DNA of 53,365 nucleotides. Source: Bacillus sp. 522_BSPC (GTDB lineage Bacteria > Bacillota > Bacilli > Bacillales > Cytobacillaceae). The position numbers and the translations under genes were made by a program. The notes below the pieces were generated by a model. That model worked only from the letters and a program-made list of their open reading frames with translations. It was not told the DNA's origin and ran no database searches. Positions 15,970 through 34,729 of the stretch are shown piece by piece (the first letter of the stretch is position 1; every line of letters begins with the position of its first letter). The DNA lies in contig NZ_JVDT01000185.1 of assembly GCF_001076885.1 (NCBI RefSeq), positions 1 through 53,365 of the forward strand, given 5' to 3'.

Positions 15970-16066
15970 TTCATATAAAAGGGGTGGGGCATGAAACGGG
16001 TGGGTACCCCCTTACATAGATAAAACGTGGAGCTGCAAGAAATTTTTGTATATTTTTCCATCCCTA

Positions 16067-16095
16067 TTGAGTTACTAAAGTACTAGAGATAAAAT
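16067..16095 (+). promoter_or_regulatory. candidate sigma-A promoter of the BREX operon
   Basis: TTGAGT (16067-16072) and TAAAAT (16090-16095) are separated by 17 bases, about 45 bases before the first gene. It is the only good match in the gap that opens the long plus-strand operon. Confidence 0.55.
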
Positions 16096-16138
16096 AAAGA
16101 TAAAGTATAAAAAAAGTAAGAGTATTGAGGTGGCTTCC

Positions 16139-16384
16139 GTGGAAGTTAAACTATTTCAGAAAACACAGAGAGATTTAGCAGGATCGATTAATTTTGTGAT
16201 AGATAAATATTGGAATGACGAGATAGACGAAACGAAAATGATTGAATTGATTCAAAAGTTGTATATAACTAATACGCGCAAATTTGTTAAAAATGGTAAG
16301 TATACAACCATTATTCGTCAACAATGTGGAAAGAGAAGACTTGAAGTCGTTGATCAAGTTCTTAATCAAACTAACGTCATTTAA
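16139..16384 (+). CDS. small unknown protein leading the BREX operon
   Basis: About 81 residues (MEVKLFQKTQRDLAGSINFV...), basic, with no known catalytic motif. GTG at 16139 has GAGGTG six bases upstream; a GTG at 16130 is an alternative with a poorer RBS. The stop is 23 bases before brxA, so it is probably co-transcribed. Small uncharacterised proteins are known in front of BREX operons in Firmicutes; a regulator or accessory role is inferred from position only. Confidence 0.6.
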   Translation: MEVKLFQKTQRDLAGSINFVIDKYWNDEIDETKMIELIQKLYITNTRKFVKNGKYTTIIRQQCGKRRLEVVDQVLNQTNVI

Positions 16385-16407
16385 GAAGGTAAGGTGAAGG
16401 AATATAT

Positions 16408-17010
16408 ATGGAATATTCCGCAGGATTTACGAAGGAAAAATGGTCTGAAAATGAGATTGAAGTTGTTTTAAAGCTCATGTCACAAGGAAAAGTAAAAAAA
16501 GAAATATTAGATGAAGTAATGGAGCAAAATTCATTTCAGTTAAGGAGTCCAGTAAGTATTAAAAATCGCTTTAATATGGTCTACAATCGAGCAGCTGTCT
16601 TTGACGATGTAATGAAGAAACACTTTTTAAACGCAAGCGACTATGATCGGAAGGCAATGACATTATACTCATTTTTAAAAGTATATCGAATACCATTAGA
16701 GTTTTACTTAGAAGTTCTTGTATTTAAGTATGAACAGCAGGAGCCTTTATACAGTAATGACTTTCACTATTTCTTTGAAGGGAAAGCTAATGTAAGTGAA
16801 AAAGTCAGTCGTTGGAGACCCGAAACCATCAAGCGACTTGTTAGTTCATTGGTATTGTTTTTCAGGGATTCAAAGATGATTGATAAGATTGAACCAACAA
16901 AGTACCAAGTTAAACCGATATATATGAGTCAGTCATTAAAAACATATGCTGAGAGGAATGCCCCTCTATTATATTCTTTTACAATTCTAGAAAAGGTGAA
17001 TGAAGAATGA
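16408..17010 (+). CDS. brxA: BrxA (DUF1819)
   Basis: A 200-residue protein of the BrxA/DUF1819 type, recognised from its size, the segment LYSFLKVYRIPLEFYLEVLVFKY and its position as the first core BREX gene. BrxA has a DNA-binding helical fold in studied systems and is needed for full defence in some of them. The gene overlaps brxB by 4 bases (ATGA), so the two are translationally coupled. AAGGTAAGGTGAAGG precedes the start. Confidence 0.88.
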   Translation: MEYSAGFTKEKWSENEIEVVLKLMSQGKVKKEILDEVMEQNSFQLRSPVSIKNRFNMVYNRAAVFDDVMKKHFLNASDYDRKAMTLYSFLKVYRIPLEFYLEVLVFKYEQQEPLYSNDFHYFFEGKANVSEKVSRWRPETIKRLVSSLVLFFRDSKMIDKIEPTKYQVKPIYMSQSLKTYAERNAPLLYSFTILEKVNEE

Positions 17011-17555
17011 AATCGACGTATGAACGATTAGAACAAATGGAAAAGCGGATTCAACAAGATAGCTTTACAAATCCAAGAGGGATTGGAAGTGACATTCCTC
17101 ATTTTGTCTTAGACTATCCTCCTGAAGATGAATTACAAGTTCGTGTATACATAAAGAACATGTTGAAACGAGCCAAAATGGAAATCAAAGAAGTAAATTT
17201 ATTTGAATTTCTCCTTTCATTTTTTGATGAAGATGAGTTGGAAGAACTATTTGAAATGGAAGAAGAGGAAGGATTACAAGGTTTGATTGATGTATTCGAA
17301 CCGATATTAAATGAAAGCAATACAATGATCCAACAATTTAAAGACATAACAGAAAATGCGGATCTTATTTTTATTACTGGGGTTGGTTCAGCGCATCCAT
17401 TTTTGCGGTCGAGTCAATTACTAAAAGCCATCTCTAGTAAAGGTTATAAAAAACCAATCATATTATTCTATCCGGGTGAATTTACAGGATTACGATTAAA
17501 ACTATTTGGCATTCTTGACTATGAAGATGACTATCAATTATCACGTATTTCCTAG
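17007..17555 (+). CDS. brxB: BrxB (DUF1788)
   Basis: A 182-residue DUF1788 protein: an N-terminal helical part, an acidic stretch (FFDEDELEELFEMEEEEG) and a C-terminal Rossmann-like part with DLIFITGVGSAHPFLRSS and KKPIILFYPGEFTG. BrxB is a small core BREX component thought to bridge the larger subunits; its biochemical role is not settled. It lies between brxA (4-base overlap) and brxC (11-base gap). Confidence 0.9.
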   Translation: MKSTYERLEQMEKRIQQDSFTNPRGIGSDIPHFVLDYPPEDELQVRVYIKNMLKRAKMEIKEVNLFEFLLSFFDEDELEELFEMEEEEGLQGLIDVFEPILNESNTMIQQFKDITENADLIFITGVGSAHPFLRSSQLLKAISSKGYKKPIILFYPGEFTGLRLKLFGILDYEDDYQLSRIS

Positions 17556-17566
17556 GGGGTAGGGAC

Positions 17567-20500
17567 ATGAAAATTAAAGATTTATTTTTAAAAGATATAT
17601 TCCGTCCAATTAATAACGTTGTTCAAGCTGAACAAATGGATGAAAAAACAATTGAAAATGAATTGGATGAGTATGTATTAACAGAAGAAAGCGAACATTA
17701 CTTAGAACGTTTTTATCGTAATTATCTTGCCGTTTATAATCAGCCATCAACTAAAGTTGGGGTTTGGATATCGGGTTTCTTTGGATCCGGAAAGTCTCAC
17801 TTTTTAAAAATCTTATCTTATTTGTTACATAACCAAACGATTTCAGGTAGAACACCTGCAGATTACTTCAAAGATAAAACAAAGAATCCAGAGTTGCTTA
17901 AAATGATGGAAGAAGTATCTGCAAAAAGAACAGATGCCTTGTTATTTAATATTGATTCAAGATCAACATCCTCTTCTAAAGATGCAGAGAAAGAACGTAT
18001 AATTGAAGTTTTCTTACGAGTGTTTAATAATCATTTAGGATATTCAGATACATTGTGGGTTGCTGAAATGGAACGTCAATTAGATGATGACGGAAATTAT
18101 GAATCCTTTAAGCAAGCCATTTACGACCAACAAGGAAAGCCATGGGAAGAATTTCGATTAAAAATATTATTACGTAAGAGAAAGGTTATACAAGCACTTG
18201 AATCGGTCGGCTATGATCAAGATACAGCAGAGACGTTCTTTGACATGAGTAGAGAATGGTTCTCTATTGACGCACAGCGAGTAGCTGAATTAGTAGCAGA
18301 TTATTGTAAAAAACAAGGCCCGGATTATCGAATTGTATTTCTTGCAGATGAAGTAGGACAGTATATCGGTAATAATACGAGTTTAATGCTTAACTTGCAA
18401 ACGATAACGGAAAAACTCGGTGACTTATGTCAAGGTCAAGCATGGGTAATTGTAACATCACAAGAAAAACTAGAAGCAACTGTTTCAGATCTTGATAGTA
18501 CGAAAGACTTTTCAAAAATCCAAGGACGATTTGAAACAAAAATCAATTTATCCAGTGCGAATACAGATGAAGTTATCAAAAAACGTTTGTTAGAAAAAGA
18601 AGACGTTGGTGCAGATACATTAAAAACGATTCATGATCAAGAAGGAAAATTAATTCATAATCGTTTAGCGTTTGATAAGCAAAATACACAATTACGTTCA
18701 GGGTATCGTTCAATAGATGAATTTGTATCATTTTATCCTTTTGTTCCTTATCAAATAGAGTTATTACAAAAGATCTTCACGAAAATCCGTAATTTAGGAG
18801 AAGGTGGACAGCACACTTCACGTGGTGAACGTTCATTACTAAAAGCATTTCAGGAAGCAGCACAATTAAATGCTGAGGAACCTATCGATAATATGGTAAC
18901 CATGGCGGAATTTTATCCTTCTATACGTGATTATTTAGAATCATCAATCACCAGTACAATTACAAGAGCTCAGGATCGAGCGAGAAATAATGAAGGTTTA
19001 GAAGAATATGACGTGAAGGTTTTGCAAGTGCTTTATCTAATCAAAGGGATTGATGATATAAAATCCACACCTAGTAATATTGCAACCCTTATGGTTGAAA
19101 CAGTTTATGATGAACGCCAACCTTTAGAGTATCGCATAAAAGAATCCTTGAACCGACTTCAAATGGCAATGTTCATTGAACAACATGCAGATGGGTCATA
19201 CTCATTCTTATCAGATGAAGAACAAGAAATTAATCGTGAAATACGTGTAGAAGAATATAATACAGCTTCTGTTAAAGAACGGTTAGGTAACCTCTTTTTC
19301 AATGTGATGTATCGTCATACCAAGTATGAATACAAGTATAAAGAGCAAACCAAACACTTTGATTACAATAAACGATTTGATAATTACGTGAAAGGTCAGA
19401 TGAATCATGAATTAACGATGCAAGTGTTCTCTGAAGGCATGACAGATTCAGAAGCAGCGTTACAAGCTAACTCTGGTCATTTAATTATTCTTTTAGACAA
19501 AGACCTTGTCGCTGAAGCAGAAAGTGCTTTAGCCTATATTCAACAAGTGGATAGCTATGTACGTCGCAAACAGTCAAGCACGACTAGCCAGCAGCAGAAG
19601 AGAATCTTTGATGCAAAAATTGCTGAAGTTGATGAATATGCAGATAAGGCAGAAGAATTATTAAACAAAGCGTGTGAGAAAGCAGAATTTTATATCCAAG
19701 GTCAACGTCGTGATTTTAATGGGGCTTTTGAAAGTAAAGTTAACCAAGCTATGGATATGCTAATTCGCAACACATATACAAAATTTCATTATATTGAGGA
19801 GCCTATTTCATTTAAAAATAGTAAAAATGAGTGGATGCAAGTTGCGGAGAATCTAGGTCAACAAAGCTTATTTAGTGACTTAAACAAAAATGCAATTGAT
19901 GAAGTCAAGCACTTTGTAGAGGAACTTGAACGTTCCCATGACCAAAGAACATTAAAACAAGTTGTACAAAAATATAAGGCTGTTCCATATGGGTGGGAGG
20001 AACAAGATACCATTGGTATTCTAATGGGATTAATGAATGCTGGAAAAGTTCGTTTCACTTATGCGGGTGAAGCCTTTAACCCTAACTCTAATCAATTCTA
20101 TGACCGACTAGAAAAGATTTCAGAACGTGATCGTATTGTTGTTTTACCAATCGTTGAAATGGATTATCAAGTGAAACAAGAGCTTATTGCACTAGTCCGT
20201 GATTTCTTTTCGAATACACAAACATATGACACGTATGACGCTTATGAAGAAGTTATACGCGAAAAGATTGACGAAGAATTTGTACAACCGATTGAAAAGA
20301 TTCGAGGGAGAAGACGTCAACAGGATTCAACAAGTGAGTATCCGTACCCAGGTGAAAGTGATATACGAACAATTGTAAATGGTACTCAAAAATTACTAAC
20401 TATCCGTGATCCCGAACAATTCTGTCGTATGTTTATTCAATATGAAGATGATATAGAAAACTGGTATGACATTTTAGAGATACTCCAAGGATTCTATGAG

Positions 20501-21130
20501 GGAAATCCTATCGTTAAATTTGACGAAGCGGTTCAAGCTCTGAAAGACCATAAGCAAGACTTAGAAATCATCCATAATGAAGAATTAGAAGAAACAGCTC
20601 AACGAATGAAACACATTTTACTACAGGAAGAACCAACAAAAGAAATTAGTCAATTACCTAAGTTGATAGATGTTCTGAAGAATCTAATTCAGGAAGAAAC
20701 CAATAAACAAAAACAGGCGGTAATGGTTCAATCGGAAAAAGCATTGAAGCAACTTGAAAACTTAATAGATCAATATCGTCAAAATGAAAGCATTTTAGAA
20801 TATATTCAATCACAAAAAAATCAAGCCACTCAGCTTTATGAAAAAATTAAGAAGAGTGAACGTATATCAAGCGCTCGAATCAATCAACAACAGCTTAGTG
20901 AGTTAGTTGAAGCAACAAAAGTAAAATCACGTCAGATGTTCAATGATTTAATAGATGACACAGATAAAGTGAAGAGGCAACCGAAGAAAATTACAGAGCA
21001 AGAATTGTATACCTCTTTCTTTAGTCAGTTAGATACAATTGAGTCCGAAGAAGACTTAGAACGTGCTATTGAATCCTTGAAGAAAAGTCTATTAAAAGAA
21101 TTACAAACACACTATTTCGTAAAATCATAA
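17567..21130 (+). CDS. brxC: BrxC (PglY-like) AAA+ ATPase
   Basis: 1187 residues, the size usual for BrxC. Walker A is GFFGSGKS (70-77), and a Walker-B-like segment IVFLADEVGQYIGN sits near 254-264. Further AAA+ features and long helical/coiled-coil regions follow in the C-terminal third (about 1010-1150). BrxC is a large ATPase required for both host methylation and phage exclusion in type 1 BREX. RBS AGGGGGTAGG lies just before the ATG. The 50-base gap to pglX is the largest before the pglX-pglZ junction. Confidence 0.93.
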   Translation: MKIKDLFLKDIFRPINNVVQAEQMDEKTIENELDEYVLTEESEHYLERFYRNYLAVYNQPSTKVGVWISGFFGSGKSHFLKILSYLLHNQTISGRTPADYFKDKTKNPELLKMMEEVSAKRTDALLFNIDSRSTSSSKDAEKERIIEVFLRVFNNHLGYSDTLWVAEMERQLDDDGNYESFKQAIYDQQGKPWEEFRLKILLRKRKVIQALESVGYDQDTAETFFDMSREWFSIDAQRVAELVADYCKKQGPDYRIVFLADEVGQYIGNNTSLMLNLQTITEKLGDLCQGQAWVIVTSQEKLEATVSDLDSTKDFSKIQGRFETKINLSSANTDEVIKKRLLEKEDVGADTLKTIHDQEGKLIHNRLAFDKQNTQLRSGYRSIDEFVSFYPFVPYQIELLQKIFTKIRNLGEGGQHTSRGERSLLKAFQEAAQLNAEEPIDNMVTMAEFYPSIRDYLESSITSTITRAQDRARNNEGLEEYDVKVLQVLYLIKGIDDIKSTPSNIATLMVETVYDERQPLEYRIKESLNRLQMAMFIEQHADGSYSFLSDEEQEINREIRVEEYNTASVKERLGNLFFNVMYRHTKYEYKYKEQTKHFDYNKRFDNYVKGQMNHELTMQVFSEGMTDSEAALQANSGHLIILLDKDLVAEAESALAYIQQVDSYVRRKQSSTTSQQQKRIFDAKIAEVDEYADKAEELLNKACEKAEFYIQGQRRDFNGAFESKVNQAMDMLIRNTYTKFHYIEEPISFKNSKNEWMQVAENLGQQSLFSDLNKNAIDEVKHFVEELERSHDQRTLKQVVQKYKAVPYGWEEQDTIGILMGLMNAGKVRFTYAGEAFNPNSNQFYDRLEKISERDRIVVLPIVEMDYQVKQELIALVRDFFSNTQTYDTYDAYEEVIREKIDEEFVQPIEKIRGRRRQQDSTSEYPYPGESDIRTIVNGTQKLLTIRDPEQFCRMFIQYEDDIENWYDILEILQGFYEGNPIVKFDEAVQALKDHKQDLEIIHNEELEETAQRMKHILLQEEPTKEISQLPKLIDVLKNLIQEETNKQKQAVMVQSEKALKQLENLIDQYRQNESILEYIQSQKNQATQLYEKIKKSERISSARINQQQLSELVEATKVKSRQMFNDLIDDTDKVKRQPKKITEQELYTSFFSQLDTIESEEDLERAIESLKKSLLKELQTHYFVKS

Positions 21131-21180
21131 AATCATGGGGTAGATGAACAATCTGCTCCTCTACATATAGGGGTGAAACA

Positions 21181-24100
21181 ATGAATAAGGCGGAATTAAA
21201 GAAATTTGCTGTAGAAGCTAGACGTGACTTAATTGATAAAGTTTCATTAAAAGCAGAACAATATGGTATTACCAAGGATAATCAAGAATTAAAGATTGAA
21301 GAAAACTATGGACAATTATTTGTGAACGAACAGCCTTATCTGATAGAAAGAAAACATGCCTTTCAAACGTTACAACAACGCTTAAGTATTGTGGGTTATG
21401 AACAGCTTGTTGAGGAAGTTGCATATACATGGTTTAACCGAATTATTGCTATTCGTTATATGGAAGTGAACAATTATTTACCCGATCGAGTAAATGTATT
21501 ATCGAGTAGTACAGGTAAAAACGAGCCAGATATTTTACTTCAATATGAAACGATGAACCTTGATGTGGATCATCGACAAATAAATGAATGGATACAAAAA
21601 GGTGAGAGTGAACAAGCTTATCGTACATTATTTGTTGCTCAATGCAATAGCCTGAATAAACTATTACCTTTCTTATTTGAAAAAATTGATGATTTTACAG
21701 AACTATTATTACCAGACTATTTATTAGATCAGGAATCTATTATACGTAAAATTGTAAATGATTTATCTGATGAAAACTTTTTCCAGCTTAATGAAGATGG
21801 TTCTCGCTCAGATAATGTTGAAGTATTGGGTTGGCTTTATCAATACTACATGTCTGAAAAGAAGGAGCAGGTTGGTGGACTAAGAAACAATGCTGTTAAG
21901 AAAGAAGATCTTCCTGTTGTCACACAGTTATTTACACCAAAGTGGATTGTCCAATATATGGTACAAAACTCTTTAGGAAAACTATATGACGAAAAATATG
22001 AAGACAACCAATTGTCTCAAAAGTGGAAGTATTATTTAAAACATGAAGAAAATCACCATTTGTACCCTGAGTTCGAATCATTAGAGGATTTGAAAATTAT
22101 GGATCCAGCATGTGGATCTGGTCATATCCTTATATACGCTTTTGAAATGTTATATGACATGTATGAAGAAGCGGGATATCCATCAAGAGAAATTCCACAG
22201 TTAATCTTAGAAAAAAACTTGTATGGACTAGATATTGATAAACGAGCTCAACAAATTGCGAACTTTGCATTGCTGATGAAGGCTGCCGAAAAACAACCAC
22301 GTTTTATCTCAAGATTAAGTCGAAAAGGTCAAAGTCCCAAGCTAAATGTTTATGAAATTGTAGATGCTGATCAATCTTTATCAGATGAAGCTATTGATTA
22401 TTTTGCTGAAAATGAGACCGATAAAGATTTAATCAATGAATTACTAAATCAATTTGAGAATGGAAAACAATTTGGTTCGTTGATAGATCCAATCGAAATT
22501 CCTTATGAAGAATGGATTAATCGAATATATGGTCTAGAGAATCAAAAAAATGATTTGATTGATGAAGCCAATTTAAATGAATTAAAAGAAAAACTATTAC
22601 CTGTGTTAGAACAAGCATTATTAATGTTTCAAAAAAATGATGTGATTGTAACAAATCCTCCATATCATAACAAATATAATTCTGTGCTAAAGCAGTTTAT
22701 GAATAGAGAGTTTGCTGATTACAAGTCTGACCTATATTCTGCCTTTATTTTTAGATCAGTACAAATGACAAAAGTAAATGGATATTCAGCTTTAATGACT
22801 CCTTACACATGGATGTTTATATCAACTCATGAAAAATTAAGAAGTTTTCTTTTAAATAATTCAATTATTTCTAGCCTAGTTCAATTAGAATACTCTGCGT
22901 TTGAAGAAGCAACAGTTCCAATTTGTTCCTTTGTAATACACAATCAAATAGAAAATAGCGTTGGAGAGTATGTTAAATTATCAAATTTTAAAGGGCCAGA
23001 AATACAGCCAATAAAAGTTAAAGAAGCAGCATTAAATAGACATGTAGAATTTAGATATCAGAGAAAATCGAATTCTTTTATAGATATTCCAAGTGCACCT
23101 ATAGCATTTTGGGTTACTGAAAAAATTCTTCAATTATTTAGAAGCGGTTTAACGCTTCATCAAAAGACAATATCGGATGGTCAAACAAAGACTGGGAATA
23201 ATGATAAATTTTTACGTTACGTTTGGGAAGTAAATAAATTAAAAGTTAACAAAAAGTGGGTTATACATGTAAAAGGTGGCCCCTTTAGAAGATGGTCAGG
23301 TAATGTAGAGTGGTTAATTGATTGGAGTAAAGAAGCTAGAGATCATTATAGGAAAGATAAAGTAGCTAGAATAATTCCAGAATATTTATGGTATAAACCG
23401 GGTATCTGTTGGACAATGATAGGGTCTACTTCATCTAAGGGTTTTAGATATGTAAAGGAAGGTTATACATTTAATTTAGCTGCTCCTACATTATTTTTTA
23501 ATAATGATGATGAACTTTTTTATACTTTGGGTTTGTTAAATACAAAAGTGGCTGAAAATATTATAAATCTAATTAATGGAACTTTGAATTTAAATGTACA
23601 AGATGTAAGGAATATTCCTCTGATTATAGATGATGATTATAAGGATGTTGTAAATATAGTTAAAAGTAATATAGAAATATCGGATAAAGATTGGAACTCT
23701 TTCGAAACATCATGGGATTTTACTAAGCATCCATTTTTAGTAGGTTTGGTAAAAGATCCAAGTTTGCTTTTTAAATCTTTTGCGAATTGGCAAAAAGAAA
23801 CTGAAAATCGCTTTTATAATTTAAAAGAAAATGAAGAAAAATTAAATAATTTCTTTATTGGTCTGTATGGTTTGCAAGAAGAATTAACAAATGGAATAGA
23901 GAACGAAAAGGTTACTGTTTCAATAGCTGATCGCGAAAGAGAATCCAAATCTTTTTTATCTTACTTCATTGGTTGTGTCATGGGGCGTTATTCTTTAGAT
24001 GTTGAAGGTCTTGTTTATGCAGGTGGTAAGTTTGACGAATCTATATATAAGACATTTAAGCCCAATAAGGACGAACTCATTCAAATTACTGATGAACATT

Positions 24101-24654
24101 ATTTTGATAATGATATTATTGTGCGTTTACGTGAGTTTTTATCTATAGCATTTAGTCCAGAGACTGTAGATGAAAATATGCAATGGTTAGCAGAATCGTT
24201 AACAATGAAGAAAAATGAGTCGCCGGAAGAGCGGTTACGCCGTTATTTCTTAGATGAGTTTTTCAACGATCACTGTAAAACGTATCAAAAGCGACCAGTT
24301 TATTGGTTAGTGGACTCCGGAAAACAAAAAGGGTTACGTACACTTATTTATATGCATCGTTATCAACCTGATACGATGGCAACAATTCGTTTTGAACATT
24401 TACAAGAGATTCAATCTAAATATCAAAATGAAATTGATATGATTGATACACGTTTAGCTAATCCAAGTTTGTCGCCAGCTGATAAGCGTAGTCTTGAGAA
24501 ATCAAAAGCAGTATATCAGAAAAAAATAGAGGAACTACAAGAATTTGATAAGAAATTAGCTACTTATGCTAATGAACAAATTGCTATTGATTTAGATGAA
24601 GGTGTCAAAGTAAACTATGCCGAGTTTAATGATGTCCTAGCAAAGATCAAGTAA
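21181..24654 (+). CDS. pglX: PglX (BrxX) adenine-specific DNA methyltransferase
   Basis: 1157 residues. The SAM-binding motif DPACGSG is at 308-314 and the catalytic NPPY at 492-495, the signature of N6-adenine methyltransferases. The central part (about 500-900) is the likely target-recognition region and is visibly more AT-rich and irregular than the ends. PglX methylates a short non-palindromic BREX motif on host DNA and is also needed for defence. The gene is intact here; PglX is known to be phase-variable elsewhere. It ends at an inverted repeat shared with the gap to pglZ. Confidence 0.95.
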   Translation: MNKAELKKFAVEARRDLIDKVSLKAEQYGITKDNQELKIEENYGQLFVNEQPYLIERKHAFQTLQQRLSIVGYEQLVEEVAYTWFNRIIAIRYMEVNNYLPDRVNVLSSSTGKNEPDILLQYETMNLDVDHRQINEWIQKGESEQAYRTLFVAQCNSLNKLLPFLFEKIDDFTELLLPDYLLDQESIIRKIVNDLSDENFFQLNEDGSRSDNVEVLGWLYQYYMSEKKEQVGGLRNNAVKKEDLPVVTQLFTPKWIVQYMVQNSLGKLYDEKYEDNQLSQKWKYYLKHEENHHLYPEFESLEDLKIMDPACGSGHILIYAFEMLYDMYEEAGYPSREIPQLILEKNLYGLDIDKRAQQIANFALLMKAAEKQPRFISRLSRKGQSPKLNVYEIVDADQSLSDEAIDYFAENETDKDLINELLNQFENGKQFGSLIDPIEIPYEEWINRIYGLENQKNDLIDEANLNELKEKLLPVLEQALLMFQKNDVIVTNPPYHNKYNSVLKQFMNREFADYKSDLYSAFIFRSVQMTKVNGYSALMTPYTWMFISTHEKLRSFLLNNSIISSLVQLEYSAFEEATVPICSFVIHNQIENSVGEYVKLSNFKGPEIQPIKVKEAALNRHVEFRYQRKSNSFIDIPSAPIAFWVTEKILQLFRSGLTLHQKTISDGQTKTGNNDKFLRYVWEVNKLKVNKKWVIHVKGGPFRRWSGNVEWLIDWSKEARDHYRKDKVARIIPEYLWYKPGICWTMIGSTSSKGFRYVKEGYTFNLAAPTLFFNNDDELFYTLGLLNTKVAENIINLINGTLNLNVQDVRNIPLIIDDDYKDVVNIVKSNIEISDKDWNSFETSWDFTKHPFLVGLVKDPSLLFKSFANWQKETENRFYNLKENEEKLNNFFIGLYGLQEELTNGIENEKVTVSIADRERESKSFLSYFIGCVMGRYSLDVEGLVYAGGKFDESIYKTFKPNKDELIQITDEHYFDNDIIVRLREFLSIAFSPETVDENMQWLAESLTMKKNESPEERLRRYFLDEFFNDHCKTYQKRPVYWLVDSGKQKGLRTLIYMHRYQPDTMATIRFEHLQEIQSKYQNEIDMIDTRLANPSLSPADKRSLEKSKAVYQKKIEELQEFDKKLATYANEQIAIDLDEGVKVNYAEFNDVLAKIK

Positions 24655-24684
24655 GCGAAAGAGGGGATATTCTCCTCTTTCGCT
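24654..24684 (+). promoter_or_regulatory. perfect hairpin between pglX and pglZ
   Basis: A 14-bp perfect stem (AGCGAAAGAGGGGA and complement, 3-base loop) starts at the last base of the pglX stop. The tail CTTTACATAAA is U-poor, so complete termination is doubtful. It could stabilise the pglX mRNA end or reduce transcription of pglZ and the genes behind it. Confidence 0.6.
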
Positions 24685-24705
24685 TTACATAAAGAGGTGG
24701 AAACC

Positions 24706-27198
24706 GTGAATGTCATTGAAAAGCTAAAAGAGAAAATACAACAAGAGAAGAAATTTAAAGAACGATTGATTGTATTTTGGTATGACCCTCAATCACAAGT
24801 AAGTGTTGGGGAATTAAAAGAACAGTTAGGCGACATTGAGATAAGGCGACTAACAAACCATAATTCATTTCAGTTAAAAGTAGAGATTGAAATTCAACGA
24901 ACAACAGAGTCATTTTTAATATACTCGGATGAAGCAAAACCAAATGATAAAGATAACATGCTATTAGATATATTGTCATACAGTACTGAATTTAAAGCAG
25001 ATGAAACTGCAATGTTATCAGAAGAGTTACAAGTATCAGATCAGGTATTACGTCCAATAATGGAACGATATCCTTTGTTCTTTGATAGTAAAGATAGGAA
25101 AAGACGACTAATTAAAATATTGCCAAAGGATTCCGACAACTATCAATTCGAACTAAGTATGATGGCTGTCTTAGTAAAGGCTTCTGTGCCCGATATACGT
25201 ATGATGACACGTCAACTGCTTTTAAATGGGCTACATTTGGAAGAAAATGATTTATTAAAACAATTAGAACGTAACTATTCATTAGAACGAACTTTAGAAT
25301 TTGTTGGCCGCCACTTTGGTGTAACACTAGAGCGGGATAATGAACCTTTATTACAACTGTTAAATGTTCTCATTTATCAACACTTTCGACAGAATGCTGG
25401 TTTTACTGTTGATGATTGGGAAGCTAAATGGGCATCGTCATCACCTAACATTTGTGCATTATTTGTTGAAGAGTGGTTACAACACGATGGAGAAGTGCTT
25501 GAAGATCATATTAAAGAATGGGAAAAAATGCATCAAGTAAGAGATGTGTTTACAAAGCGCGACATAGAAAACTACCAGCTAGTTGAAACGTTCCCGGTTG
25601 TTGATGCACTGATCATTGAAAAATGTATCGATGAATTGATTCATCAAACAATCCATGCAGATGAACGGCTATCTTTAATTGAGGAAAGATTACAAACGTA
25701 TTGGGGATCAAAAGGTAAACTAAAAGACCTTTATGAAACTCTATTTGAAGCAATTCGGATTGAAAAGCTAAGACCTGTTGTTAATCGTATTCATCAACAT
25801 GAAGATTTTTATGAAAATTATACAGAATATCTATATGAAATTGATAATGCTTACCGTCGTTTTATGCATCATTTTACACGCCTAGATGCGAAAGAAATGA
25901 TTGAAGAAATTGCTAATTACTTAACGAATTGGTACGAAAATGAATACCTACGTCGAATCTCAGAGGAAATGAATTTCAGGTTGCAAGATGGATATGTATC
26001 CAAACTAATGCCTCAACGAACATTTTTTTCTAAGGTTATTCTTCCTATCTTGGAAAGGGAACAAACGAGAATATTCGTTATTATATCAGATGCCTTGAGA
26101 TACGAGGCGGCATATGAACTTTATGGAAAATTAAAAGAACGAGAAAATGGAAAATCAAGTATTAATCCTATGGTAGCAAGTTATCCAACGTATACGCAAT
26201 TAGGGATGGCATCTTTATTACCTCATAAGGAACTTGAAGCAGATGAAAAGAAAGGTATCTTGGCTGATGGACAATCGACGAAAGGCCTCGATAATCGACG
26301 TCGCATTTTACAGTCAGTTGAGCCACATTCTGAAGTGTTAAAGTTAAAGGAACTTTTGGATATGAAAACAAGTGAAGTTGACCAAGTGTTGAAAGGTAAA
26401 AGATTAGTATATTTATATCATGATCACATCGATGCTCTTGGTGATTCAGCAAAGTCAGAACGAGAGACATATAGAGCAGTACATCAAGCGATTTCGGATT
26501 TAGAATATGCAGTTGATCGATTATCACGTCTTCAAGCGAAACGTATTTTTATCACAGCAGATCATGGATTTTTATTCCAATTTAAACAAATTGAAAGCCA
26601 TGGCAAGATACCAGCTGTTGAAGGACAAGTTATGGATCATAATCGTCGTTTTGCTATAGGGCACAATTTATCAGTTCCAGAAGGTTCGATTAAATTAAAT
26701 GAACGACAATCATCATTACAAAATGTTGAAGTTGTTTTGGCCAAAAGTATTAATAGATTTAAAACCGGTGGGGGTCTTCAGTTTATTCATGGTGGAGCCT
26801 TACCACAGGAGGCGGTAGTCCCTTTAATAGATTACCGTCGTATTGAAGCAGGAAAACCTGTTGATATTGCAGTTGCAATGATTAATAAAGTAATTACAAA
26901 TTATCGTATTCCGGTTTCCTTCTATCAAGAGCAAAGTATTGCAGACAACTATACTTCACGAAAAATTAATATAGCTTTTTACCAAGGTGATGAACGAATC
27001 TCTAATGAAGTAGAACTCGTATTTGATCTAAAGGGAGAAAATCGCGACCGTAATAGGCAAGTAATATTTAACTTAGTCGAAAAGCATTACAAGATAGGTG
27101 AAACATGCATCTTAAGAGTAGAGACTGTGACCAAGAAAGGTAATGAGCCATACTTGGAAGAAGAATTTACCTTACGATTATATGAAGCATTATATTAA
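24706..27198 (+). CDS. pglZ: PglZ (BrxZ) alkaline-phosphatase-superfamily protein
   Basis: About 830 residues with a PglZ domain in the second half. It has ERE...FVIISDALRYEAAYEL (about 450-470), the metal/active-site segment FITADHGFLFQ (about 614-624) and a C-terminal immunoglobulin-like region. Related type 1 PglZ proteins act as metal-dependent nucleases. The GTG at 24706 follows AGAGGTGG; the GTG at 24697 sits inside that RBS and is less likely. The next gene starts 19 bases on. Confidence 0.92.
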   Translation: MNVIEKLKEKIQQEKKFKERLIVFWYDPQSQVSVGELKEQLGDIEIRRLTNHNSFQLKVEIEIQRTTESFLIYSDEAKPNDKDNMLLDILSYSTEFKADETAMLSEELQVSDQVLRPIMERYPLFFDSKDRKRRLIKILPKDSDNYQFELSMMAVLVKASVPDIRMMTRQLLLNGLHLEENDLLKQLERNYSLERTLEFVGRHFGVTLERDNEPLLQLLNVLIYQHFRQNAGFTVDDWEAKWASSSPNICALFVEEWLQHDGEVLEDHIKEWEKMHQVRDVFTKRDIENYQLVETFPVVDALIIEKCIDELIHQTIHADERLSLIEERLQTYWGSKGKLKDLYETLFEAIRIEKLRPVVNRIHQHEDFYENYTEYLYEIDNAYRRFMHHFTRLDAKEMIEEIANYLTNWYENEYLRRISEEMNFRLQDGYVSKLMPQRTFFSKVILPILEREQTRIFVIISDALRYEAAYELYGKLKERENGKSSINPMVASYPTYTQLGMASLLPHKELEADEKKGILADGQSTKGLDNRRRILQSVEPHSEVLKLKELLDMKTSEVDQVLKGKRLVYLYHDHIDALGDSAKSERETYRAVHQAISDLEYAVDRLSRLQAKRIFITADHGFLFQFKQIESHGKIPAVEGQVMDHNRRFAIGHNLSVPEGSIKLNERQSSLQNVEVVLAKSINRFKTGGGLQFIHGGALPQEAVVPLIDYRRIEAGKPVDIAVAMINKVITNYRIPVSFYQEQSIADNYTSRKINIAFYQGDERISNEVELVFDLKGENRDRNRQVIFNLVEKHYKIGETCILRVETVTKKGNEPYLEEEFTLRLYEALY

Positions 27199-27216
27199 GT
27201 CAAAAAGGAAACGGGG

Positions 27217-30200
27217 GTGTTACTTTTGCTTAAAAAAGGTGAAATTGTTGGAGCATCTTTCTGGCCAGAAGCAGTTCAAATTAAACATGTTGAAAGCATA
27301 GATGATGATTTATATTTAGTAGAAGCTGTTGGGCGAGAGTCTAATCAATTCTTTGAAAACTATCTTGAGAAACATCAATTACAAGAAGTTGAACGTTATT
27401 CTGATGAAGATGCTTCAGATCAATTGAGAGATAGATTTCAACATTACTTACAATATTATGTGTTGCGAACAGAGAAAGAATACTCACAGTCCCGTGCCCG
27501 TGGAAATAAGAACATGATTCCTTTACCACACCAAATCGAAGCGGTTTATAGCAAAATGCTACAGGCGCCCCAAGTCCGTTATCTATTAGCTGATGATCCT
27601 GGTGCAGGTAAAACGATAATGTCGGGTATGCTTATCCGTGAATTAAAGGCACGAAACATGATTCGAAAGTCTTTGATTTTAGTACCACCTCTTGTATTGA
27701 AGCAGTGGCAAACGGAATTAAAGGAAAAATTCAATGAAGACTTCTTAATTATTACACGTTCCTATTTGGATGCTTCAGGTGAACTGAATCCGTTTGATAT
27801 GCATCAGCAAGTCATTGCATCAATGTACTGGGCGTCTAGAGAAGATATAAAAAACATGATTATTAACTCGCAGTTTGATTTAGTCATAGTCGATGAAGCC
27901 CATAAAATGGCTGCGTATACAGTAGGTCAAAAGAAACGCAAAGTGAAGCGGACAAAGATGTTCCAACTAGGCGAAAATTTGTTGAGACACACTGAGCATG
28001 CTCTTCTATTGACAGCAACACCTCACAAAGGGGATAAAGAAAACTTTCGTCATTTGATGAGTTTGATCGATCACGATATCTTCTCGCAACTTAATAGGAG
28101 TGATTCAATTTTAGAGAAGAGTAATCCATATGTTATCCGTCGACTAAAAGAAAATATGGTTAACTTTGATGGAACTCCTCTATTTCCGAAACGTACAACG
28201 ACAACGTTAGGGTTTGACTTGAGTCCAGCAGAATCTGATTTGTATGAAGCTGTAACAGAATATGTAAGACATCACTTTAACCGCGCAAAACAGAATAATA
28301 AACCAAATGTTGCTTTTGCAATGATGATATTACAACGTCGATTAAGTTCATCTGTTGAAGCAATATATTTATCACTTGTACGTCGTAAAGAACGACTGCA
28401 GAAAGCGTTAGAAACAGGGCAAAAAGTTAAACAGATGATATTGGATTACGAAGACTATGAAGATAGTTCTCTCGAAGAACAGGAATTGCTTGAGGAGTAT
28501 GCTGAAGGCGAATACGAAGAACTAGATTTAGATGAATTACAAGTAGAGATTGAAATGCTGGATCAACTAATTCGTAAGGCAAATGTCATCAGGCAAAGCC
28601 AAAATGAGCGCAAGTATCTTGAACTTGAGAAGACACTATTTGGTGCAAGTGGCTTGTTGGCACAAGATGAGAAGATTTTAATTTTTACTGAATCTAAAGA
28701 CACACTTAATTATCTTGAGAAGAAATTGAAAGCATACGTTCCAAAGATAGCCAAAATTGTTGGTGACTTTTCTATGGATAGACGTCAAGAAGAGGTTGAG
28801 AAGTTTCGAAATGATGTGCAAATCATGATTGCTACAGATGCTGGAGGAGAATCAATTAACCTGCAATTTTGTAACCAAATGGTTAACTATGATATTCCTT
28901 GGAATCCTAATCGTTTGGAACAACGTATGGGGCGTATTCACCGTATTGGACAGAAAAATGAAGTCTTTGTATTTAACCTTGTTGCCACAAATACACGTGA
29001 AGGTGACGTATTAATTCGACTACTAACAAAGATGGAGCAAATGCGTGAAGATCTTGGACAAGATCTTGTGTATGATTTTATAGGTGAAGTTCTTGAGGAT
29101 CGCCAAGCTGATTTATCTTCGGTGATGGAACAAGCGATCTCTGGCCGAGAAGATTTAGACGAGATTATTGCAAAAATGGAAAAAACATTATCCGAAGAAC
29201 ACAAGCGTTTATTAGAACTCGCTCAAAATGAACGTTTAGATGATAACTTTGACTTACCTGGTGCAAAGCTGTCCTTTGATGAAGTATCAATAAACAGCAT
29301 TCCTAATCGGTTTTACGGACAATTTGTGATTGATGGATTAAAAAACACAAGAACTAGATTAAATATTTCTGCGGATCAGACAACTGCCCGTATTGATCGT
29401 TTTCCAAAGCGAATTCGTGATTTTGCACGTGATCATAAATTGATGTTTAATTTTGATGATTCCATACGTTTTGCTTTATCATCATCGAAAGTCTCAAATT
29501 CAATACCGATGATTGAAAATGATAATCCTTTGTTTAATTTAGTGATGAAACTGACAGCGAAAGAAATGCAGCAAGCTGTACTTCCTTTTTATGAAGTGAA
29601 GACATCAATCCCAGAATCTATGACAATGGAATTAAATCAATTAACAATTGTGGACGGTAATGGGCGAGAACTTGAGCAAAAGCTAATGCTGACGGGTAAA
29701 CGTAGTAATAGTGAATTTATAGAAATATCACCATATTTACTTTTTAATCAAGCATTGAATGTAATAAATACGTATGACTCTGAAGAGCAGGAAATTAAGC
29801 GACATGTAATTAAACATGCTAGGAAACAATTAAGGTCTATTCAACGTAAACGTGAAGAGTATGCAAATAAAAAGAGAGTCTTCTTGAGAAAGTCCTTCGA
29901 TGATCAAATGGAAACCTTACAAGATCGATTAAAGAGGTATCAAGAAGAAAATGTTGAAGGTAAAAACAGTGCTTTAATTAATCAAACTTACGCACAAATA
30001 GATGAAATGGAAGATCGGAGCAAAGAACGTTTAACTGAAATTGATCGTGAGCGATCGATTCAATTAAAGCCAGTAAAAAGGATAGCTCAATTTAGAATTG
30101 AACCAAATGGTAATGCTAATGGCCGTGTAATACCAGAAGACTATTTGGCAATGATTGAAGATTATGAATTAAGGCAAGGAAGAATCAATGTAAGGGTACA

Positions 30201-30405
30201 ACAAGCATTTGGGTTAGTAGATTTCATCAGCGTGGAAGCGGGTGGTGAAAGTCGACTTATTGTGATTACGGACGATATACATCAATTTAAGGAGCAGTTG
30301 ATAGAGGAAGACTATAATGCAATTAAGAGTCGCGTATTTGTGTATGAAGTAAGAGAAAAACAGATAGTAGAATATCAATTAGACCAAGGCTTGATGTTTG
30401 TTTAA
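27217..30405 (+). CDS. SNF2-type helicase (BrxHII/DrmD-like) in the BREX operon
   Basis: 1062 residues. The N-terminal extension is followed by helicase motif I DDPGAGKT (about 124-131), motif II VDEAH (about 224-228), motif III LTATPHKG, and a C-terminal RecA domain with IATDAGGESINLQ and the SNF2 signature QRMGRIHRIGQ (about 566-576). The C-terminal 450 residues are charged and helical. Such helicases appear as BrxHII in some BREX types and as DrmD in DISARM. Here it occupies the slot after pglZ where type 1 operons have brxL. It probably translocates on DNA during phage recognition. GTG at 27217 or TTG at 27226 could be the start. Confidence 0.88.
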   Translation: MLLLLKKGEIVGASFWPEAVQIKHVESIDDDLYLVEAVGRESNQFFENYLEKHQLQEVERYSDEDASDQLRDRFQHYLQYYVLRTEKEYSQSRARGNKNMIPLPHQIEAVYSKMLQAPQVRYLLADDPGAGKTIMSGMLIRELKARNMIRKSLILVPPLVLKQWQTELKEKFNEDFLIITRSYLDASGELNPFDMHQQVIASMYWASREDIKNMIINSQFDLVIVDEAHKMAAYTVGQKKRKVKRTKMFQLGENLLRHTEHALLLTATPHKGDKENFRHLMSLIDHDIFSQLNRSDSILEKSNPYVIRRLKENMVNFDGTPLFPKRTTTTLGFDLSPAESDLYEAVTEYVRHHFNRAKQNNKPNVAFAMMILQRRLSSSVEAIYLSLVRRKERLQKALETGQKVKQMILDYEDYEDSSLEEQELLEEYAEGEYEELDLDELQVEIEMLDQLIRKANVIRQSQNERKYLELEKTLFGASGLLAQDEKILIFTESKDTLNYLEKKLKAYVPKIAKIVGDFSMDRRQEEVEKFRNDVQIMIATDAGGESINLQFCNQMVNYDIPWNPNRLEQRMGRIHRIGQKNEVFVFNLVATNTREGDVLIRLLTKMEQMREDLGQDLVYDFIGEVLEDRQADLSSVMEQAISGREDLDEIIAKMEKTLSEEHKRLLELAQNERLDDNFDLPGAKLSFDEVSINSIPNRFYGQFVIDGLKNTRTRLNISADQTTARIDRFPKRIRDFARDHKLMFNFDDSIRFALSSSKVSNSIPMIENDNPLFNLVMKLTAKEMQQAVLPFYEVKTSIPESMTMELNQLTIVDGNGRELEQKLMLTGKRSNSEFIEISPYLLFNQALNVINTYDSEEQEIKRHVIKHARKQLRSIQRKREEYANKKRVFLRKSFDDQMETLQDRLKRYQEENVEGKNSALINQTYAQIDEMEDRSKERLTEIDRERSIQLKPVKRIAQFRIEPNGNANGRVIPEDYLAMIEDYELRQGRINVRVQQAFGLVDFISVEAGGESRLIVITDDIHQFKEQLIEEDYNAIKSRVFVYEVREKQIVEYQLDQGLMFV

Positions 30406-30419
30406 TGAGGAGGATTACA

Positions 30420-31400
30420 ATGAAGAGATGGTGGATGATACGTGCTGGTGATGATAATGAGTTGATACCAGTATGGAAAGAAGAGAGTATAGCATCTATT
30501 GGATGGCCACAATTAGGTGATCCCAAAGAATATCGATCAAAAGAAGATATGGTTTCAAAAGCCGATGACGTTTATTCTGAAAGTAAACCTAATACAAGAC
30601 GGAGTTGGATAAATCAAGTATGGCGTTTCAGTAGAGAAATAAAAAAAGGTGATAGAGTCATAACTTACTCTAAAGAGACAAGGGAATATATTGTGGGTAC
30701 TGTAACAGAATCACATTTTTATGATGAATCTGTTGGTAATCCAGCTTACCCAAACAATATTAAAGTTGAATGGGAAGAAATTACCGTTGAAAGAGATTTA
30801 TTATCACAAGCAGCTAAAAATAGTTTAGGTTCAGTATTAACTGTATTTCGTGTAGATGAGTGGGGAAATGAAATTGAGCAATTATTAGAGCACCCTTTTA
30901 TTGAGCCTGAGGAAACCGGTGAAGTTGAAGAAAGTGAAATCATTGAAGACCTAGTTAATAAAGCCTTAGTCATGGTACAAGACAAAGTAGATAAGCTTGA
31001 TCCATGGCAAATGCAAGAGTTAGTAGGAGGACTCTTACAAGCTATGGGATATAACGTTCAGGTAAGTCCCAAAGGGCCAGATGGAGGAGTAGATGTATTA
31101 GCATATAAAGATGCTTTTGGTTTTGAAAAGCCTATTATCAAAGTGCAAGTAAAACATAGGAAATCATCAGCAGGCGCACCTGAAATTCAACAATTACTAG
31201 GTGCTAATCCTATTGATGCTAATAGTTTGTTTGTATCTACAGGTGGATTTACCTCTCAGGCAGAAGCGGTAGCTAGACATAATTCTGTTAGGTTGGTAGA
31301 TTTGGAACAATTAGTTGACTTAGTTGTGAAGTGGTATGAGAATATGCCGAATGATGTAAGAGCATTGTTGCCGTTACAGAAGATGTATGTGCCTGAATGA
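30420..31400 (+). CDS. Mrr-type restriction endonuclease with PUA/EVE-like N-terminus
   Basis: 326 residues from the ATG at 30420, which has GAGGAGG six bases upstream. The N-terminal part (about 1-145) resembles PUA/EVE-type modified-base readers (MKRWWMIRAGDD...IASIGW...KKGDRVITYS). A C-terminal Mrr-cat nuclease follows, with D225 in GPDGGVDVLA and Q243-x-K245 in KVQVKHR, the PD-(D/E)xK-like active site. The family typically cuts DNA with modified bases. Its presence as the last gene coupled to a BREX operon suggests a second layer against phages whose modifications escape BREX. Confidence 0.82.
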   Translation: MKRWWMIRAGDDNELIPVWKEESIASIGWPQLGDPKEYRSKEDMVSKADDVYSESKPNTRRSWINQVWRFSREIKKGDRVITYSKETREYIVGTVTESHFYDESVGNPAYPNNIKVEWEEITVERDLLSQAAKNSLGSVLTVFRVDEWGNEIEQLLEHPFIEPEETGEVEESEIIEDLVNKALVMVQDKVDKLDPWQMQELVGGLLQAMGYNVQVSPKGPDGGVDVLAYKDAFGFEKPIIKVQVKHRKSSAGAPEIQQLLGANPIDANSLFVSTGGFTSQAEAVARHNSVRLVDLEQLVDLVVKWYENMPNDVRALLPLQKMYVPE

Positions 31401-31423: not shown

Positions 31424-31807
31424 ATGGAGTGGATTACTGTTGTAGTATCATCTCTTTTTTCCGGTATTATTGGTATTGTTATTTCAAATTTGTATCACAA
31501 AAGGTCTGTTAAGAAGAAACAAAAATATGACTTATTAGAACAGATGATGGGGAATCGTTTTGATTTAACCGGGGATAAATTTTCTGAGGCATTAAATAAA
31601 GTTTTTATTGTATTTAATGATTCTCAACAGGTTTTAGAGGCTTTAAAGTCCTTTCATGAAAGTGTCAGTGGCAAACATAAGGAACCTGAAGTTATTGATC
31701 AAAGACTTCTTGAATTATTTAAGTCAATGTGTGATAACTTGAAAATTGATACAAGGATTTTAACTGATAGCTTTTATTTAAAGGCATTTAATATAAAAAA
31801 CAAATAA
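31424..31807 (+). CDS. small membrane protein next to the TIR gene
   Basis: 127 residues with one N-terminal membrane helix (about 4-23, ITVVVSSLFSGIIGIVISNL), a basic stop-transfer (HKRSVKKKQK), and a cytoplasmic helical domain with LLEQMMGNRFDLTGDKFSEALNKVFIVFNDS. The domain looks like a conserved family of unknown function (perhaps DUF6680; not certain). RBS AAAAAGGACTG. It lies 23 bases after the Mrr gene and 81 bases before the TIR gene, possibly a membrane partner of the TIR protein. Confidence 0.6.
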   Translation: MEWITVVVSSLFSGIIGIVISNLYHKRSVKKKQKYDLLEQMMGNRFDLTGDKFSEALNKVFIVFNDSQQVLEALKSFHESVSGKHKEPEVIDQRLLELFKSMCDNLKIDTRILTDSFYLKAFNIKNK

Positions 31808-31888
31808 CGCAGCAGAAATCGCCATTCTGTCATATTGGAAATTAGAATGTTGGGTCAGGAACAATTACTATATAAAGCAGGTGAAATA

Positions 31889-32731
31889 ATGACAGTCAGC
31901 GAATCTAGTTTAAAAAGAACTATAAAAAAAGATAGTGATCTTACTGGTAAATTGGTTACTGTAAGAAAAAAGCGAGATGACGAAGCAAAGAAAATTCAAA
32001 CCCTAACCAAAAAGAGAAATCTAGTAAAATCAGATTTACAAAGATTAGAACGATACCAGAAAAACCTGCTAAAGTATGAAAAAGAAATGACACAGATAAT
32101 GGAACAAAAACGTAAAAATAATGATGATATCAATAGATATAAAGAAAGAGTAGATAAGGAACAGAAACGGGAATATAATAAAATGCTGAAATCCATTCAA
32201 TCTCAGACAAGCATGAATGAAGACTATATGAACAGTGTTTCGGAAATATCAGAAAAGATAAACCAATTGGCAGAAGATGTTAAACATACCGCTGCTGAAA
32301 AAGAGATTATTGAATTTGATGTGTTTTTGTCCCATTCAAGCCTTGATAAAGAAGACTATGTTACAGAGTTGTCAGAAAAACTAAGCGAAAAAGGGTTAAA
32401 AGTTTTTGAAGATGTCAAAGTTTTTAAAATAGGACAAAGTCAAACAGACATGATGAATATGGGTATTTTAAACTCAAGATTCGTTGTTGTTTTTCTATCC
32501 GCTAACTTTATTAAGAGTGGTTGGTCTGACTATGAATTCAAAAGCTTTTTAAACCGTGAGATTAATGAAAAGAGAATAATAATATTGCCAATATGGCATA
32601 ACATATCAGTTGAAGATATCCGCCAATATAACCCATATTTAGTAGATAAATTTGCATTAAGTACTAATAAATTTACGATAGATGAAATTGTAGAACATAT
32701 TTTTGGTGTGGTTAACATGTCCAAGGAATAA
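31889..32731 (+). CDS. coiled-coil TIR-domain protein (candidate NADase effector)
   Basis: 280 residues. A long N-terminal coiled coil (about 10-130) rich in K/E/R is followed by a C-terminal TIR domain (about 142-270): FDVFLSHSSLDK, GLKVFEDVKVFKIGQS, ILNSRFVVVFLSANFIKSGWS, with a glutamate (E216 in WSDYEF) at the place of the catalytic residue of TIR NAD-cleaving enzymes. The ATG at 31889 has GCAGGTGAAAT upstream; an earlier TTG at 31835 lacks an RBS. TIR proteins in defence islands cause abortive responses by depleting NAD. How this one is triggered is unknown. Confidence 0.8.
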   Translation: MTVSESSLKRTIKKDSDLTGKLVTVRKKRDDEAKKIQTLTKKRNLVKSDLQRLERYQKNLLKYEKEMTQIMEQKRKNNDDINRYKERVDKEQKREYNKMLKSIQSQTSMNEDYMNSVSEISEKINQLAEDVKHTAAEKEIIEFDVFLSHSSLDKEDYVTELSEKLSEKGLKVFEDVKVFKIGQSQTDMMNMGILNSRFVVVFLSANFIKSGWSDYEFKSFLNREINEKRIIILPIWHNISVEDIRQYNPYLVDKFALSTNKFTIDEIVEHIFGVVNMSKE

Positions 32732-34708: not shown

Positions 34709-34729
34709 GGTGAACCGTACCATAAGTAA
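34709..34729 (+). other. attR of the BREX element (internal att site)
   Basis: The core GAACCGTACCATAAGTAA matches the rlmH end at 8897-8917 in 19 of 21 bases. It still encodes GEPYHK-stop because both differences are synonymous. It is the junction between the first and second segments of the island. Confidence 0.85.

Follow-up and report, generated by a model that had tools for sequence, protein, structure and literature searches.

We analysed a stretch of 53,365 nucleotides from Bacillus sp. 522_BSPC (hereafter the window), which is one whole contig (C158) of a 5.14 Mb genome in 291 contigs that is called 100% complete. It encodes a bacteriophage exclusion (BREX) operon that lacks brxL and has a RapA-like Swi2/Snf2 helicase in the place of this gene. 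The best overall explanation, which we regard as probable, is that the locus belongs to a separate lineage of type 1 BREX cores that lacks brxL and occurs in Bacilli, with a Snf2 motor doing the job of BrxL in the restriction phase; its biochemical steps are those we infer further below.

A type 1 BREX core with a helicase in the slot of brxL

The operon (16130-31400, all genes on the forward strand) comprises a small protein, brxA, brxB, brxC, pglX, pglZ, the helicase, and a nuclease (Table 1). This order had been proposed from the sequence alone and is borne out by the positions of the open reading frames (ORFs) and by the profile matches. Five genes expected in type 1 BREX are present (brxA, brxB, brxC, a BREX-1 pglX, and a type A pglZ), and the sixth, brxL, is not. 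The absence of brxL, also proposed by the sequence-only reading, holds for the locus and for the genome: profile scans of the operon's genes revealed no BrxL, and the BrxL ATPase family PF13337 has no match in the window's own genome, in a search that gave matches in 2 of 14 control genomes. The helicase occupies the vacant slot. It has superfamily 2 motifs and similarity to RapA; of the solved proteins, RapA matches the family profile best (E ~1e-49; the profile includes three Hma rows). Motifs are intact in the helicase (Walker A at residue 129, DEAH at 226, motif VI at 569) and in the nuclease (DGGVD and QVK at 226 and 248), as are those of PglX and BrxC given in Table 1. The genes are tightly spaced, as previously suggested, with 18 nucleotides (not 19) between pglZ and the helicase, and the proposed 14 between helicase and nuclease if the latter starts at the methionine at 30420. 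This start is matched by 13 of 23 aligned homologues, whose own starts were chosen mechanically.

The helicase and BrxL are mutually exclusive in our data. Among 397 genomes of the order, 33 have a type A PglZ over the cut-off, and we fetched stretches of up to 20 kb around it (one of just 5.5 kb). The helicase comes next in 12 of these genomes, 15 have a full BrxL, and 6 have neither in full; no stretch has both. Similarly, BrxL is absent from all 23 loci with a type 1 core and the helicase (helicase-type loci), and the helicase from all 20 loci of the BrxL side, 15 of which have a full BrxL (identified with Pfam in L114, L125, and L128, and by similarity in the remaining loci). The cores also differ. 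The PglZ of the helicase lineage, including that of a locus lacking the helicase (L131), score 523-585 bits, and the remaining ones 695-750 bits, without overlap. The 18 rows of the helicase lineage fall together with L131 into one clade of the PglZ tree (support of 100), and in the BrxC tree the BrxL side forms one clade with the same support.

This arrangement recurs as a lineage of its own. We found 43 distinct helicase loci with readable context, 27 with a type 1 core and 16 with a type 3 core, once duplicates were merged (L064 with L028, L037 with L073, and L199, L200, and L201 with L034, L035, and L036, respectively) and two loci set aside: L041 (33% identity over half the helicase, another family) and L040 (helicase in pieces, context unreadable). 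The search of genome contigs with the helicase gave 18 loci (L024-L041), and all ten with at least 84% helicase identity have the order brxC (cut short in L028), pglX, pglZ, helicase. In the draw of 397 genomes from the order, 18 have the helicase at E 1e-120, 12 on type 1 and 6 on type 3 cores. A draw of 358 genomes from the class gave 10 matches at E 1e-150, of which 8 were new: four of type 1 (L264, L265, L270, and L271) and four of type 3 (L266-L269). Finally, a draw of 348 genomes from the phylum gave, the window's own genome aside, three matches of at least 50% identity over most of the length, all on type 3 cores, as well as a fragment (59%, 290 residues). The distribution is patchy because only 1 of 12 genomes of the same genus (G009, type 3 core) has a full-length homologue. 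No plasmid home for the helicase was found: none of the 353 plasmid records matching at E 1e-15 reaches 60% identity. The helicase directly follows pglZ in 25 of the 27 type 1 loci; one small ORF intervenes in L076, and in L271 the helicase closes the series brxC, pglZ, pglX, pglX in two ORFs. The recurrence of the gene order as a separate lineage is thus supported for the core and the helicase.

Several observations weigh against our interpretation. Within the stretches fetched, L131 combines a helicase-lineage core with the lack of both the helicase and BrxL, four loci of the BrxL side (L115, L124, L127, and L129) also have neither, and L123 holds a BrxL fragment alone. Because of these loci, the last gene of these operons may be dispensable. 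Furthermore, the helicase is in pieces in some relatives (L079, L080, and L270), the BrxC tree groups the helicase-side cores weakly (support of 34), and our trees are quick ones, with long-branch warnings and with the Shimodaira-Hasegawa-like approximate likelihood ratio test as sole measure of support. Finally, Snf2 proteins often translocate without unwinding DNA, so that it is by position and exclusivity alone that the helicase is given a role equivalent to that of BrxL. Some of these points would fit a degraded type 1 BREX that lost brxL and has an unrelated helicase nearby: L131 lacks both genes, some helicases are broken, and the recombinase beside the window's locus is split. Yet the position directly behind pglZ in 25 of 27 type 1 loci, the intact motifs in the window, and the helicase identity of 80-94% across 12 loci make such decay very improbable. 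L131 also provides a natural test case.

The TIGR04540 small protein opens 4 of the 23 helicase-type loci, 10 of the 20 BrxL-side loci, and 2 of 12 type 3 loci with the helicase; many of the helicase-type stretches stop short of its position. Its putative role would be that of a leader or regulator shared by three kinds of BREX operon.

The helicase family and the known systems

We built a helicase tree of 49 rows with the DrmD of L273 and L274 as outgroup (14 of 52 rows were left out for size or near-identity, and 11 were added). A smaller tree without DrmD, from which 10 of the same 52 rows were left out, agrees with it. The 31 BREX-linked helicases form one clade (support of 100, branch of 1.5), which groups with the helicases of Hma and BREX-related systems (support of 96) and lies apart from the canonical type 3 BrxHII, from two haloarchaeal BrxHII-like proteins, and from DrmD. 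The sequence-only reading had likened the helicase to the BrxHII of BREX types 3 and 5 and to DrmD; neither kinship stood, and the protein belongs to a separate clade. Within this clade, the 13 type 3 rows form one group (98), which is joined with 4 of the 18 type 1 rows (99). Since the type 3 helicases nest inside the type 1 copies, the simplest story to be read from these sequences would be one passage of the helicase from type 1 to type 3.

The BREX types are used here as Goldfarb reportedly defined them in 2015. The window shares with type 1 the first five genes, their order, a type A PglZ, and a BREX-1 PglX, as well as the small leader gene found in half of the BrxL-side loci. It differs from type 1 by the Snf2 helicase in the slot of brxL and by a PglZ that falls in a separate clade. 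The 16 type 3 loci (brxF-brxC-pglXI-pglZ-brxA-helicase) share with the window the helicase clade and the place of the helicase behind the core, whereas their core is of type 3; other type 3 loci carry BrxHII between pglXI and pglZ (L213-L215). The type 3 label was given by profiles in L043 (BrxF, BrxC, PglXI, PglZ, and BrxA, then the helicase), by similarity to all five of these genes, or to the part present, in seven loci (L034-L036 and L266-L269), and by similarity to type 3 PglZ together with gene order and size in the remaining eight.

We rejected the assignment of the window to three other types. For type 3, the best match of PglX is BREX-1 PglX, and the matches listed include no BrxF in the ten genes of 16130-32731 and no type 3 PglZ in 15001-35000. 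For type 5, PglX_5 scores 243 bits (cut-off of 900) and PglZ_5 56 bits (cut-off of 250), and the helicase lies outside the clade of the haloarchaeal proteins. For type 6, PglX_6 scores 314 bits (cut-off of 900) and PglZ_6 83 bits (cut-off of 400), with neither BrxE nor BrxD among the matches listed for the ten genes. According to the main text of a 2026 survey, types 5 and 6 have a type-1-like core in which a helicase replaces brxL, a feature they share with the window; BrxHII is found solely in type 3 and in some type 5 systems, and BrxL occurs in 76% of type 1 systems (PMC12839542). The literature that we searched, which took in parts of the text of this survey, gave no description of this helicase on a type 1 core, nor of the same helicase being shared by types 1 and 3. 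It also gave none of this gene order as a catalogued subtype, a possibility that had been raised with the sequence-only reading.

A case can be made for a system akin to the defence island system associated with restriction-modification (DISARM), or for a BREX-DISARM hybrid. The best PADLOC model for the helicase is PDLC02620 'DrmD', for which no cut-off is displayed (1,119 bits in the window, 1,208 in L043, and 1,641 in L037), DrmMI scores 974 bits on PglX, and DISARM DrmD and the ArmA of ARMADA are likewise RapA- or BrxHII-like helicases beside a PglX-like methylase, ArmA being likened by its description (PMC12458937, in part). However, the NCBIfam profile of DISARM DrmD gives 360 bits, below its cut-off of 610. 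The DrmD annotated beside drmA (L273 and L274) align with the helicase at just 28-29% over ~290 residues and are the most distant group of the tree. No drmA/YprA partner was found in the locus, and the matches listed for the ten genes (the best 25 families for PglX and the helicase) show no drmA, drmB, or drmC except for a cross-match of the helicase to DrmA. We therefore rejected membership in DISARM and give the hybrid almost no credence. The words DISARM and DrmD are absent from the main text of the survey (PMC12839542).

The nuclease, its neighbours, and the island at rlmH

The last gene of the operon encodes a protein with the Mrr-type PD-(D/E)XK domain of type IV restriction enzymes. It had been labelled a PUA/EVE-Mrr nuclease. 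The Mrr part of the label is sound, and the PUA/EVE part, a possible N-terminal domain, rests on an EVE match below threshold (E 0.0099, 16.3 bits, cut-off of 23); no solved relative was found at E 0.01. Within the stretches fetched, a close homologue occurs in 11 of the 23 helicase-type loci, all of them in the window's own subgroup of 14, and is lacking in the other 12 and in all 12 type 3 loci. Among the eight class-level loci, only L271 has a homologue (30% identity, after the helicase). A protein of 1,579 residues separates helicase and nuclease in L028, and in G160 a distant homologue (29%) is separated from the helicase, which precedes it, by ~9 kb.

The 397 genomes of the order contain 20 places, in 19 genomes, with a near-full-length nuclease of at least 60% identity. 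Three follow this helicase (including the window's own), one lies five kb beyond it (G394), one sits directly behind the brxL of a canonical type 1 operon (L128, in G300), and 15 are elsewhere; one of the latter is again in G300, 13 kb past the copy behind brxL. Of these 15, four are behind type I restriction genes (directly in L191-L193, one gene on in L183) and two behind type III genes (L182, and L187 with one small ORF between); the restriction genes were identified with Pfam in L182, L183, and L191 and by similarity in the remaining loci. For the other nine, our queries brought out no clear partner of the BREX or restriction kind, with weak exceptions in a short BrxL-like fragment (L190), a 30% methylase match (L196), and a 26% helicase match (L184). 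BREX and nuclease are on different contigs in G332, and in G115 the nuclease is in two pieces ~1 Mb from BREX. The earlier suggestion that helicase and nuclease together complete the BREX operon is thus supported for the helicase, which stays behind pglZ, and not for the nuclease, which is found freely apart from the brx genes. Since many of its homologues sit apart from helicase and brx genes, we rejected the nuclease as a fixed or defining part of this BREX. To judge from these placements, it looks like portable, exchangeable cargo. Its use against phages with modified DNA, also proposed earlier, is a reasonable guess for an Mrr-fold protein.

These data bear on the idea that helicase and nuclease form one two-part effector, the real killer of the system, as in Hma and BREX-related systems or in the ZorD of Zorya. 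The two genes are adjacent, distant nuclease homologues accompany the helicase in L271 and G160, and the nuclease scores 40 bits against ZorD. The helicases of Hma and BREX-related type 1 (DUF499) systems, which have a RapA-like core, are the nearest ones outside the clade, and an active nuclease domain is reported on the type 1 BREX-related helicase in 79% of taxa (PMC12839542, main text). These systems differ from the window by a DUF499 ATPase and another methylase, with no BrxC or PglZ seen beside them. Moreover, in the stretches fetched, the close nuclease is missing from 12 helicase-type loci, from all 12 type 3 loci, and from L264-L270; homologues follow brxL in L128 and adjoin restriction genes of type I or III in six further loci. 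We consider a two-part effector unlikely. The nuclease also recalls the type IV enzymes BrxU and GmrSD, which are add-ons behind type 1 BREX; the add-on of the window has an Mrr fold, and a GmrSD lies further downstream in L024. The commonest add-ons in the text of the 2026 survey are PD-(D/E)XK nucleases, standalone or fused (PMC12839542).

Further cargo follows the nuclease (Table 1); a DUF6680 gene is also downstream of the nuclease in L066. The operon and its cargo lie close to rlmH, in what resembles the islands related to the staphylococcal cassette chromosome (SCC) that are known at this gene in other Bacillales (PMC10061031, in part).

Table 1. Features of the window, in operon order followed by cargo and the island at rlmH.
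Feature	Position	Strand	Evidence
TIGR04540-family small protein, opening the operon	16130..16384	+	NCBIfam TIGR04540 98 bits, cut-off 50
brxA	16408..17010	+	Pfam BrxA 145 bits
brxB	17007..17555	+	Pfam BrxB 106 bits
brxC, ATPase	17567..21130	+	NCBIfam BrxC 1074 bits, cut-off 400; Walker A at residue 70
pglX, N6-adenine methyltransferase	21181..24654	+	NCBIfam BREX-1 PglX 1226 bits, cut-off 500; NPPY at 492
pglZ, type A	24697..27198	+	NCBIfam TIGR02687 (BREX-1 PglZ type A) 523 bits, cut-off 270
RapA-like Swi2/Snf2 helicase, 1062 residues, in the place of brxL	27217..30405	+	SNF2-related and Helicase_C domains
Mrr-fold PD-(D/E)XK nuclease	30420..31400 (ORF opens at 30405 or 30420)	+	Mrr_cat 86.5 bits; PADLOC PDC-S02 463 bits
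DUF6680 protein, cargo	31424..31807	+	PF20385 41 bits
TIR-domain protein, cargo, ThsB-like	31835..32731	+	PADLOC PDC-S66
Schlafen AlbA_2 and HATPase_c_4 protein, cargo	32816..34507	+	Domain matches
rlmH, insertion site of the island	8438..8917	+	PF02590 204 bits
Large serine recombinase in two ORFs (catalytic and Recombinase domains 9785-10576, zinc ribbon 8789-9676)	8789..10576	-	Domain matches
3' end of rlmH, left attachment-like site	8900..8917	+	Last 18 bases of rlmH
Repeat of the 3' end of rlmH (second copy), likely right boundary of the BREX island	34712..34729	+	2 mismatches
Repeat of the 3' end of rlmH (third copy), likely boundary of a second, tandem island	50452..50469	+	3 mismatches

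The marks of an SCC-like element are all present: a large serine recombinase, insertion at the 3' end of rlmH, and repeats of this end. With up to three mismatches, the 18 bases that close rlmH have four matches in the window, against 0.04 expected. The fourth match (4466, three mismatches) is inside an ordinary upstream gene, so that the three-mismatch copy at the end of the second island is weak if taken alone. Collinear similarity to five genomes of the same genus, searched with a query from 34000, opens at 50459, 50478, 50481, 50481, and 50494, and none was found left of 50459, where the matches of G009 are repeated pieces only. The chromosomal flank lies 8 kb from rlmH in G009 and 41.5 kb in the window. 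Given the repeats, the shared chromosome from ~50459, and this difference in distance, the window most likely holds two SCC-like islands in tandem (8438-50469), with the BREX block as the first. Downstream of rlmH come the split recombinase and helix-turn-helix and RadC genes; the second island carries RadC, PucR-type, nitroreductase, and permease genes. The known islands share with ours the rlmH-end repeats, the large serine recombinase, the tandem composites, and the cargo of conflict genes (PMC10061031, in part). Ours differs by having this BREX variant as cargo and a split recombinase, and because of this split its present mobility is doubtful.

Proximity to rlmH recurs in other helicase-type loci. 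In 11 of 23 (the window, G013, G160, G194, G394, L024-L027, L031, and L032; distances taken by hand), one contig carries rlmH and the helicase no more than 50 kb apart; the remaining 12 lack this proximity or have the two genes on different contigs. A related recombinase adjoins rlmH in G012, G013, and G160. The genomes of L025 and L026 (G762 and G763) have two copies of rlmH ~5 kb apart upstream of the BREX island. At the contig end (53291-53365), a repeat of ~75 bases has many copies in the window's own genome and in several genomes of the genus.

Proposed mechanism and implications

We compared, in bins of 100 residues, 14 PglX from the 13 loci with a helicase at least 80% identical (the PglX of L031, in two ORFs, on its first part only). 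The ends of the protein are conserved (76-85% in residues 1-100 and 89-96% in 1001-1100), and identity drops to 21-53% per bin in residues 601-900 (one bin has 64%). Four copies already diverge beyond residue 200 (38-43% in bin 201-300). Identity across 12 of these loci is 80-94% for the helicase, 82-97% for BrxC, and 72-91% for PglZ. The hypervariable region at ~600-900 is presumably the target-recognition part of PglX. A variable middle of PglX beside a conserved helicase is how swapping of this part would look, and it is to be expected if the target is chosen by PglX and the helicase is indifferent to the motif. Some operons have two or more pglX genes (L028, L068, L121, L129, and L271), and the two of L028 differ from residue 200 on, possibly giving a double specificity. 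On the BrxL side, a Cas9-like protein of ~1,085 residues follows brxL (L125:15363-18614 and L130:15363-18596) or its fragment (L123:13758-17018), with HNH_4 and RuvC domains found by Pfam in L123 and L125; the copy of L130 is 83% identical.

In canonical systems, PglX, BrxB, BrxC, and PglZ are required for methylation and restriction, BrxL is dispensable for methylation (PMC13326643, in part), and PglZ is a nuclease (PMC12205998, in part). By analogy, the PglX of the window, with BrxB, BrxC, and PglZ, would methylate one motif of the host chromosome and recognise unmethylated phage DNA. The RapA-like helicase would serve in the restriction phase in the place of BrxL, an assignment made because of its position and its exclusivity. 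The complex of BrxC, PglX, and PglZ would probably load it onto unmethylated target DNA, and ATP-driven translocation would then clear replication or transcription proteins or present DNA to the PglZ nuclease, stalling phage replication. The nuclease most likely acts alone, as a type-IV-like backstop against modified DNA that escapes methylation-sensing systems, and would form with the DUF6680, TIR, and Schlafen genes a set of exchangeable cargo. The block may move, or have moved, as an SCC-like island entering the 3' end of rlmH.

The helicase might instead serve methylation or sensing, by opening or scanning DNA for PglX, and leave the killing to PglZ and the cargo nucleases. RapA-like proteins remodel nucleoprotein, which would suit this role. 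The nuclease activity of PglZ would suit it as well (PMC12205998, in part). On the other hand, methylation in BrxL-type systems needs no last gene (PMC13326643, in part), and L131 keeps its core without a helicase. We consider this role unlikely, slightly more so than the two-part effector, and keep to a Snf2 motor acting in the restriction phase.

In a broader view, the last BREX gene may be an interchangeable restriction-phase motor, with one helicase family that was born on a type 1 core, was plugged into type 3, and works with both; we put this forward tentatively, as an idea about as open to doubt as to belief. If true, methylation-sensing cores and motors would be a modular kit, and the lineage described here would be a new BREX subtype with its own class of helicase, now named DrmD in PADLOC. 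The best model for a helicase family that we found only at BREX cores is PDLC02620, and because PADLOC gives this BREX-linked helicase the name DrmD, some DISARM calls in Bacilli may be wrong. The nuclease illustrates how portable type-IV-like cargo can settle behind any methylation-based system that occupies an island. The passage of the helicase family between type 1 and type 3 cores suggests that BREX types exchange their motor. Found now with BrxL, now with a Snf2 helicase, and now without either, the same core would offer a natural series for testing the unsettled function of BrxL: what the two proteins have in common would be the restriction step.

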